From positions 1 through 64,000 of IMG/VR virus record IMGVR_UViG_3300028197_000962: a DNA stretch of 64,000 bases; one strand, 5' to 3'. The notes under the pieces are model-generated. The model worked only from the letters and a program-made list of their open reading frames with translations, searched no databases and was not told the DNA's origin. Source of the stretch: a virus. A program made the translations under genes and the position numbers. Below are positions 21,029 to 22,190 of the stretch, piece after piece (position 1 is the first letter of the stretch; each line of letters starts with the position of its first letter).

Positions 21029-21267
21029 GAAAGAACTTCTTTGTATTTTTCAAGTAGTTGATTATTTGGTTCTGCCATTGTCAGAACTTTGTCAGAACTA
21101 ATCATAAATTCGCTTTGAATAGTATGCTCCATCAACCAAGGAACAATACCAGTTGATTCTACCACATAGGGTTCAATCAACTTACAGTCTGGTTCTCCTA
21201 ATTCAGAACCCACCTCTTCAATCTGTGAGATCAGAATCTGATTTGTCAGAACTAGAAGTTTGATCAT
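21025..21267 (-). CDS. Small protein of unknown function, Sm-like relative, 80 aa
   Basis: Starts MIKLLVLTNQILISQIEEVG, parallel to the neighbour upstream (MIKLAVLKSGEDVIADVSEM), and like it contains a PWL segment and a late DKVLTMAEPN piece that parallels DRVLTISESDN in the gene at 36028-36420. I read these as related small beta-barrel (Sm-like) proteins. It overlaps the upstream gene by 50 bases and gene 43 by 4 bases. Function unknown; the location next to the polymerase suggests a replication-linked or RNA-linked role. Confidence 0.6.
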   Translation of the reverse strand: MIKLLVLTNQILISQIEEVGSELGEPDCKLIEPYVVESTGIVPWLMEHTIQSEFMISSDKVLTMAEPNNQLLEKYKEVLS

Positions 21268-21547
21268 CTTTAATACCTTCTTTATACTTTTGAGTAACTT
21301 GTGGAATGGGATCGACCAGAGTTATAATCCAGTCTGGGGCAACAGGGATTTCTTTCTGACTTGTCAGAGGAATCCATGGGGCGAAAACAATATCTAGGTC
21401 TCGACGTTCATACAACGCCTGAGGATCTAGAAATCTTACTGTGGCAGGATTCTTGAATGTGTATCCGATCACACGCTCTCCCATTAGCATTTCACTAACG
21501 TCTGCGATGACATCCTCACCTGACTTCAATACTGCTAACTTGATCAT
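21218..21547 (-). CDS. Small Sm-like protein, first gene of the gene 43 operon, 109 aa
   Basis: The opening SGEDVIADVSEMLMGERVIG is typical of small beta-barrel proteins that begin with a strand, a sharp turn with Gly-Glu, and a second strand. Then come VRFLDP and FAPWIPLTS, and an acidic Ser-rich tail (SSSDKSDSDLTD) lies at the C-terminus. It is the first gene after a strong sigma70-type promoter. No function is known; the paralogue comparison is my own reading. Confidence 0.6.
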   Translation of the reverse strand: MIKLAVLKSGEDVIADVSEMLMGERVIGYTFKNPATVRFLDPQALYERRDLDIVFAPWIPLTSQKEIPVAPDWIITLVDPIPQVTQKYKEGIKDDQTSSSDKSDSDLTD

Positions 21548-21568: not shown

Positions 21569-21597
21569 ATTATAGCAAGAAAAAAGAGGGGCGTCAA
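21569..21597 (-). promoter_or_regulatory. Sigma70-type promoter for the gene 43 operon
   Basis: On the minus strand TTGACG (21592-21597) and TATAAT (21569-21574) are separated by 17 bases, with TGC before the -10 (extended -10). This is close to the host sigma70 consensus. It lies about 20 bases upstream of the 109-residue gene. The -35 element is inside the stem of the terminator that ends the hsp20 transcript, so the two signals share DNA. Confidence 0.7.
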
Positions 21598-21644: not shown

Positions 21645-22079
21645 TTAGAACCAGATTTTTTTATTGTGATGCTCTGGTACAATTCTACCAAGTATGATAC
21701 TTAGTAACCCATCCTCAAATACAACTGATCTAACTTCCGTTTCTTCTGCCAGTGTCCAAGTTCTGGTGAAAGATCGTTGAGCCATTCCTCTATGGACATA
21801 TGTTTTTTCTGATTCGATATTCCCCCTTTGTCCTTCGACAAAGAGTTTTCCGTCTTGCGTGTAGACATTAACTTCTTCTTTTTTAAATCCTGCTAGTGCT
21901 AATTCAAGGAGCGACTCTGTGCTACTAACTTGAATTAAATTGTATGGCGGATAATTTGACTGTGTTTCTTGTAGAGTAAACAATTTGTCAAAGTATTGAT
22001 CCATACCAATACTATTCCTATTTATGCGTTCCATCAACGCAGGTAGGTCCGCAACAGTATACCGTGCAAGGTTTCCCAT
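21645..22079 (-). CDS. hsp20: Small heat shock protein (Hsp20)
   Basis: An alpha-crystallin domain protein of 144 residues. The core strands read VSSTESLLELALAGFKKEEV, VYTQDGKLFVEGQR and HRGMAQRSFTRTWTLAEETE, followed by VFEDGLLSIILGRIVP; the I-x-I/V near the end is where small Hsps dock. It acts as an ATP-independent holdase, possibly for virion assembly or stress during infection; almost all cyanomyoviruses have it. The transcript is bounded by a terminator on each side. A strong ribosome site (AAAGGAG) lies in a small hairpin upstream. Confidence 0.93.
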   Translation of the reverse strand: MGNLARYTVADLPALMERINRNSIGMDQYFDKLFTLQETQSNYPPYNLIQVSSTESLLELALAGFKKEEVNVYTQDGKLFVEGQRGNIESEKTYVHRGMAQRSFTRTWTLAEETEVRSVVFEDGLLSIILGRIVPEHHNKKIWF

Positions 22080-22087
22080 GATTCTTA

Positions 22088-22101
22088 GCTCCTTTAAAAG
22101 C
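22088..22101 (-). promoter_or_regulatory. Hairpin covering the hsp20 ribosome site, possible RNA thermometer
   Basis: The leader reads GCUUUUAAAGGAGC, which can fold as GCUUU/GGAGC (with two G-U pairs) around a UAAA loop. This hides the GGAG ribosome site 9 bases before the hsp20 start. A row of U facing AGGA is the layout of fourU thermometers, known to control small Hsp genes. The stem is short, so this remains an inference. Confidence 0.35.
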
Positions 22102-22156
22102 GAGTTTGTGTTTTGTGGACCCCGAAGGCATCCGTAGTATATAGTAGCACATCTTA

Positions 22157-22190
22157 TAAAAAACGGGGTGTTGAACCCCGTAGTTTTTTA
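22157..22190 (-). terminator. Intrinsic terminator after the 475-aa late gene
   Basis: Hairpin with arms ACGGGGT and ACCCCGT and a five-base loop, with a T run after it on the minus strand and A-rich sequence before it; it may work in both directions. It isolates hsp20 from the upstream 475-residue gene. Confidence 0.8.

Follow-up and report, generated by a model that had tools for sequence, protein, structure and literature searches.

A conserved two-hairpin leader of the cyanophage hsp20 gene as a probable ROSE-type RNA thermometer

The hsp20 gene of a T4-like cyanophage is preceded by a short leader of two hairpins, the second of which holds the ribosome-binding site, and this leader is probably an RNA thermometer of the ROSE type. 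The comparison of leader sequences across phages firmly supports a conserved structured RNA of ROSE type; the evidence comprises the sequence itself, the architecture, covariation, conservation across phages and the association with a small heat shock gene. Temperature sensing is the most likely role of this leader; an opening that depends on temperature, the start and timing of transcription, and a benefit to the phage are inferred. The element belongs to a known class of RNA switches in a new setting, the hsp20 gene of cyanophages.

The hsp20 leader and its surroundings

The stretch of DNA analysed here (the window, 64,000 nucleotides) was taken from a virus record of 100,189 bases, in which hsp20 is surrounded by genes of T4-like cyanophages, including those for a DNA polymerase, RegA and a clamp-loader subunit. 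In a comparison of 16 T4-like cyanophage genomes, hsp20 was listed as a core gene (PMC3037559). The gene starts with an ATG at 22079 on the minus strand, and the leader reads, from 5' to 3' in the RNA, as hairpin 1 (22133-22117), a short spacer, hairpin 2 with the Shine-Dalgarno (SD) sequence (22104-22089) and the start codon (Table 1).

Table 1. Features of the hsp20 region in the window
Feature	Position	Strand	Evidence
hsp20, small heat shock protein of 144 aa	21645..22079	-	ORF; PF00011 (HSP20) E 2.4e-14; phrog_432 (PHROG 432) E 8.4e-50
Two-hairpin ROSE-like leader element	22087..22136	-	Covariance model R1 (window excluded) 51.4 bits, E 8.6e-16; ROSE_3 sub-threshold
Shine-Dalgarno AAGGAG, 9 nt 5' of ATG	22089..22094	-	Sequence
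Hairpin 2 (proposed sensor), CUC[G]CUU-UUA-AAGGAG, bulged G22101	22089..22104	-	Sequence; pairs form in 249-263 of 263 distinct leaders
Hairpin 1, GGAU[G]CC-UUCG-GGGUCC, bulged G22129	22117..22133	-	Sequence; stem covaries in relatives
Possible late-promoter variant ACTATATA	22138..22145	-	Lies about where relatives have TATAAATA; use putative
Terminator-like hairpin, 3' of the upstream gene	22163..22181	-	Consensus match only

The initial annotation of this region had described a hairpin before hsp20 that hides the SD sequence and resembles a thermometer, a description that is supported here with the addition that the hairpin forms the 3' half of a two-hairpin leader. The letters of the proposed GCUUU/GGAGC stem around a UAAA loop are as claimed, and G22101-U22097 can pair with G22092-C22088. 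The second, upstream hairpin with a UUCG loop was also correctly recognised; its sequence, GGATGCCTTCGGGGTCC, sits exactly at 22117-22133 and forms part of the same element as the SD hairpin. Within the window, the UUCG hairpin occurs once (at up to 3 mismatches). The idea that it is a leader hairpin repeated before many genes of the phage was rejected on account of this single occurrence and because the fetched phage DNA has 1232 other ORF starts, none of which parses as a two-hairpin leader.

Published descriptions of ROSE elements name the motif U(U/C)GCU and a bulged G as hallmarks (PMC3669281, PMC9450479, PMC11182007). The leader in the window lies directly upstream of a small heat shock gene, and its 3' hairpin carries UCGCU (22099-22103, within the anti-SD arm 22098-22104) opposite AAGGAG (22089-22094). 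By sequence and comparison, the pairing with the SD sequence is predicted to be imperfect, with a bulged G. The number of hairpins, two in the window, falls within the two to four of the class; an extra 5' or middle hairpin is seen by eye in some phages.

In most relatives, a motif resembling the T4-type late promoter stands just upstream of the leader. The cyanophage late promoter has been given as NATAAATA (PMC2984593), and of the 402 leaders, 267 carry its TAAATA portion in the 30 nt 5' of hairpin 1, 66 more carry one of four related hexamers there and 69 lack any; in random 30-nt stretches, TAAATA was found in 259 of 8060 and any of six hexamers in 592 of 8060. In 282 of 333 leaders, the motif stops 3-4 nt short of the first paired base of hairpin 1. 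Many leaders without the motif have an extra hairpin 5' of hairpin 1, according to 60 leaders that were read individually. Such an extra 5' hairpin was observed in many ACG-2014j-type and some S-RIM2-type leaders (L085, many of L177-L256, some of L097-L176), with sequences of the form GUGAGAGG...GGGG...CCCC...CUYUYACGC or GGUUCG...CGAACC between the late-promoter motif and hairpin 1, which gives the impression that a third module has been added to the leader. An apparent extra hairpin between hairpins 1 and 2 was noted in some Melnitz-type leaders (L322, L328, L333, L418, L419).

Some further features of the region were recorded. A strong sigma-70-like promoter match (TTGACG-17-TATAAT with TG) lies on the minus strand at 21569-21597 of the window, just past hsp20 and before an ORF of 109 aa (21218-21547). 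In P-SSM2, a manA RNA (RF01745, 128.4 bits; L084, positions 1-151) lies upstream of purL and hsp20, its 5' end cut by the locus border.

Conservation and covariation among relatives

For comparison, 416 hsp20 loci were fetched by protein similarity, not by their leaders, giving 417 with the window. They comprise 400 IMG/VR loci (five queries, best 80 kept each) and 16 hand-picked stretches of phage records; since each protein scan contributed the best 80 of 161-590 loci and the phage records were chosen by hand, the set is weighted. Enough leader was available at 408 of the 417 loci, nine being too short. The parser looks for Y-G-CY...GG-G in hairpin 1 and for [CU]GCU facing GG before the start, taking the best of up to four start codons. 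Because [CU]GCU and YGCY are demanded, both bulged Gs are invariant by construction, and what was measured is that 403 of the 408 usable leaders satisfy this two-hairpin architecture. With a stricter cut-off (three or more outer pairs in hairpin 1, five or more in hairpin 2), 402 of 408 leaders remain, and at this cut-off 1 of 5100 shuffled leaders and 0 of the 1232 other ORF starts in the same DNA pass, the latter count staying at 0 with up to four start codons each. When the arms of hairpin 1 were exchanged between phages and the leaders reparsed, a mean of 11.3 (maximum 20) of 51 passed, compared with 50 of 51 observed.

Five leaders did not parse; four of them (L374, L375, L396, L397) show a compact hairpin 1 by eye, and the fifth is that of S-TIM54 (L094). 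The leader of L165 parses without outer hairpin 1 pairs. Across the close set of 80 loci the leader is nearly invariant and the sequence 5' of the promoter motif varies. Between the S-RIM2 phages and the window, the leader is about 85% identical over 60 nt and the protein about 33%. The loop of hairpin 1 is UUCG in 147 of the 263 distinct leaders, with UAAC, GUAA, GAAA, GCAA and others in the remainder.

A covariance model (R1) was built from an alignment of 18 relatives (A5), with the window left out. Within the window, R1 finds the hsp20 leader at 51.4 bits (E 8.6e-16), followed by a next match of 6.1 bits. Of the 16 phage records, 14 match at E <=0.1, in every case with the top-scoring match immediately before hsp20; among these top matches that of ACG-2014f is the weakest (E 5.3e-5), and the Syn19 leader reaches 72 bits. 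Neither Atu_ph07 nor S-TIM54 gives a match at E 0.1 or better; the Atu_ph07 leader nevertheless parses, and the hsp20 of S-TIM54 shares 28.5% identity with that of the window. Weak matches in Syn33 (140311-140348) and P-RSM6 (138565-138607) lie inside annotated coding sequences and were taken as chance; further weak matches occur in ACG-2014f (partial, E 0.08) and once each in S-PM2 and S-PM2d (E 0.8). For P-HM2 (L083 523-1020, GU075905.1), the start of hsp20 is annotated at locus position 523, before the leader, and the R1 match lies directly before the gene only for the ATG at 595. The annotated start looks 72 nt too early, because the SD sequence and the hairpins point to the ATG at 595. 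A cyanophage-type hsp20 leader of 60 bits was also observed on a contig titled Nonlabens xiamenensis (L452, NZ_RMVE01000006.1), which may be a co-assembled cyanophage.

What the relatives conserve is the pairing CUC[G]CUU/AAGGAG, in which one G is bulged. Among the 263 distinct leaders, the first, second and third outer pairs of hairpin 1 are each present in 262, variously as G-C, U-A, A-U and C-G; 262 can also make all three outer ROSE pairs at once, and compensatory changes are seen. Covariation is seen at several pairs of hairpin 1 and mainly at one of hairpin 2. That pair, C22104-G22089, is C-G in 205 of the 263 distinct leaders, G-C in 52, U-G in 5 and unpaired in 1; the 52 G-C leaders are all 51 of the ACG-2014j group, where the SD sequence is AAGGAC and GUC/GAC takes the place of CUC/GAG, and one other. 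Mapped onto a protein tree of 51 phage representatives, this pair must have changed 4 or more times, wobble changes counted. The remaining pairs of hairpin 2 are nearly invariant or changed on one side.

Covariation was scored on the 18 ungapped leaders of equal length in A5, and the MAFFT alignments A1 and A4, in which parts of hairpin 1 were misplaced, were left out of the counts. For the ROSE structure, 96.6% of cells are paired and covariation scores 0.342. Shuffling gives a mean of 0.130, with 0 of 500 shuffles reaching the observed value, and sliding the structure gives 0.085 at most. Five pairs show a double change, a number reached by 51 of 500 shuffles.

Proposed mechanism and alternative readings

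The initial annotation had assigned the SD hairpin to the fourU class, in which a run of U pairs with the SD sequence, here in the register GCUUU/GGAGC. The SD-hiding hairpin is better explained as ROSE, and a fourU-type thermometer is improbable. A fourU element pairs four consecutive U with AGGA, whereas the GCUUU/GGAGC fold pairs three U with GGA. All five of its pairs form in 52 of the 263 distinct leaders and in 5 of the 51 representatives (<85% identity); by group, the full stem is available in 35 of 38 window-type, 17 of 56 S-RIM2-type and 0 of 169 other distinct leaders. Among the 18 aligned leaders it has 71.1% of cells paired and a covariation of 0.000, and the ACG-2014j group (GUCGCUU/AAGGAC) is unable to form it and keeps the ROSE register. 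The compensatory changes in relatives that had been suggested as a check are present in the ROSE register and lacking in GCUUU/GGAGC. On this conservation and lack of covariation, the fourU register was rejected as a general structure, although the close relatives of the window can form it and both registers are possible within the window's own close set.

Folding energies bear on the same choice. In RNAfold, the isolated stretch has GCUUU/GGAGC as its fold of lowest energy (-3.1 kcal/mol), and in the isolated window hairpin this register is favoured by 1.0-1.6 kcal/mol, with the ROSE register at a population of 0.05-0.19. Taken alone, these isolated-hairpin energies speak against the ROSE reading. 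In the window leader both registers are populated, with ROSE going from 0.61 to 0.75 and GCUUU/GGAGC from 0.39 to 0.24 between 15 and 35 C. At 15-30 C, stem stability, which the initial annotation had asked to see upheld at ocean temperatures, was computed at -3.1 to -5.2 kcal/mol (ROSE) and -4.4 to -6.8 kcal/mol (GCUUU/GGAGC). As many as 56 of 200 shuffles do as well as the isolated stretch and 125 of 200 fold as well as the 81-nt leader, so that folding of the window sequence alone is not above chance. In the window, RNAfold places hairpin 1 mostly in an adjacent register that contains a G-G mismatch.

Computed melting is weak in the window, as it is for E. coli ibpA. With ViennaRNA, the unpaired fraction of the window SD sequence is 0.11 at 15 C, 11-13% over 15-35 C and 0.17 at 47 C, and the same calculation for E. 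coli ibpA, which the literature recognises as a thermometer, gives 0.06 rising to 0.23. Among the 51 representatives, SD opening has a median of 0.14 at 10 C and 0.31 at 47 C; it rises clearly in Melnitz-3 (0.18 to 0.85), is flat at 0.30 in P-HM2 and falls with temperature in P-SSM2. The ROSE register has a low population across most of the temperature range in S-RIM2 and ACG-2014f. Across the representatives, the energy of the bare ROSE hairpin at 25 C has a median of -0.96 kcal/mol (10-90% range -3.3 to +2.2). These melting numbers decide little, because the nearest-neighbour model omits the non-canonical pairs reported for ROSE.

Under the ROSE reading, the mRNA would probably start just 5' of hairpin 1, at a T4-type late promoter suggested by the position of the motif. 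Hairpin 1 would serve as a stable scaffold, and the arm CUC[G]CUU of hairpin 2 would mask the SD sequence AAGGAG through an imperfect helix in which a G is bulged. In the cold, hairpin 2 would keep ribosomes off; warming or another disturbance would loosen it and allow synthesis of the phage chaperone late in infection. Because the sea stays at nearly the same temperature over a single infection, a signal other than temperature may matter more. A tentative extension, drawn by analogy, would make the leader a core regulatory RNA among T4-like cyanophages, acting less as a simple thermometer than as a load sensor: Hsp20 would bind its own ROSE leader and repress itself, and unfolded or overproduced late proteins such as capsid would occupy the chaperone and release the leader. 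E. coli IbpA has been reported to repress itself via its own ROSE leader (review PMC8155344). If the load-sensor reading were true, a single switch would be opened by heat as well as by assembly load.

Two other readings would explain the conservation without a thermometer. The leader might be a structured RNA in which hairpin 1 protects the 5' end of a late mRNA and hairpin 2 does no more than dampen translation or serve as the binding site of a protein, putatively RegA. The short distance between the late-promoter motif and hairpin 1 fits this, as do the weak computed melting, the position of the RegA gene (two genes upstream of hsp20 in the window and next to it in S-PM2) and the mRNA stabilisation by hairpin I that is discussed in PMC3669281. 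Nevertheless, the conserved features of hairpin 2 are those of a ROSE sensor and not of a bare stem, and the absence of the hairpin pair from all 1232 other ORF starts of the fetched phage DNA is unlike a general 5' stabiliser, and we regard this reading as unlikely. Far more remote is a DNA operator, namely a Pho box for host PhoB, as was proposed at the same place in S-PM2d, where ATTCAAACTCGCTTAAATA upstream of S-PM2d130 (Hsp20) is printed as a putative Pho box (PMC10976474, Table 2). The same source reports neither PhoB binding nor differential expression at low phosphate for the S-PM2d hsp20, and the Pho box reading was rejected on these published binding data. In S-PM2 (NC_006820.1, L505), ATTCAAACTCGCTTAAATA occupies 96163-96181 within an R1 match at 96154-96189 (E 3e-6), with the hsp20 start at 96194; this stretch includes the anti-SD arm and extends into AAGGAG, its end lying 12 nt from the start codon, and covariation with the SD arm points to RNA pairing. 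The ROSE reading would also offer an identity for the S-PM2d stretch printed as a Pho box without PhoB binding.

Origin and comparison with known thermometers

Cyanophage small heat shock proteins (sHSPs) have been placed nearer to bacterial class A sHSPs than to those of their hosts (PMC3827213). Bacterial loci from a genome scan with the Melnitz-3 group (the best 80 of 183, including contigs that look phage-derived) are mostly from Alphaproteobacteria, among them Pelagibacteraceae. In 70 of these best 80, [CU]GCU faces AGG before the start, with the next two outer pairs present in 65 and 48 of the 70; R1 picks up 43 of the 80 (E <=1) as well as E. coli ibpA (E 0.018). It is likely that the gene and its RNA switch moved together from class A bacteria and then stayed under the phage late promoter.

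Among the entries listed by searches of open-licence papers, there was no report of this ROSE-type element in a cyanophage, nor was an experiment on the temperature response of the hsp20 leader found, and the consulted portions of published work on cyanophage sHSPs, including PMC3827213, make no mention of thermometers. The hsp20 leader would be the first ROSE-class element in a virus found by this literature search. With a ROSE element before most cyanophage hsp20 copies, a direct test of warming against phage chaperone output and yield is possible.

The leader shares with the phage thermometers of lambda cIII, SPbeta blyA and a gut phage sigma70 that they are temperature-linked leaders of phage genes, although blyA and sigma70 are fourU elements and cIII uses alternative folds in which heat lowers expression; none of the three is described, in the parts of the sources consulted, as ROSE or as preceding a small heat shock gene (PMC4166951, PMC10586365, PMC11182007).

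Among Rfam families, none reaches its gathering score in the window. ROSE_3 (RF02523) aligns to the leader over its full length (1-69 of 69; window 22074-22137) at 19.2 bits and E 0.095, with both hairpins and the start codon in register and an unpaired G in both model hairpins; for Melnitz-3 the match has E 0.0018. Searched over the whole phage record, ROSE_3 gives no match at E 0.001. Unlike ROSE_3 members, the phage leaders score 19.2-34.1 bits where listed, the window lowest and the best phage highest, and all Rfam ROSE matches fall below gathering, which is 43 bits for ROSE_3; the window leader is therefore not filed as a member of RF02523.

The closest published parallels are the ibpA leaders of bacteria. 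The ROSE elements of Pseudomonas ibpA have two hairpins in 61-62 nt and are over-stabilised by deletion of the motif G (PMC3669281, Krajewski 2013). Like these, the phage leader is about 60 nt long, consists of two hairpins with U(U/C)GCU opposite the SD sequence in the 3' one, has a stable hairpin I and precedes a small heat shock gene (PMC3669281). It differs in lying in the DNA of phages of cyanobacteria, in having a late-phage promoter motif instead of sigma-32, and in a hairpin 1 with its own bulged G and loops that differ between phages. E. coli ibpA, unlike the window, has three to four hairpins (PMC3669281), and its SD hairpin is 1.1-1.4 kcal/mol more stable (20-42 C) than the best window fold. 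The core of the two SD hairpins is nevertheless nearly the same, CUCGCU...AGGAGCUA, with ACUCGCUUUUAAAGGAGCUA in the window resembling UCUCGCUGAUUUCAGGAGCUA in E. coli ibpA, and the two behave similarly in computation.
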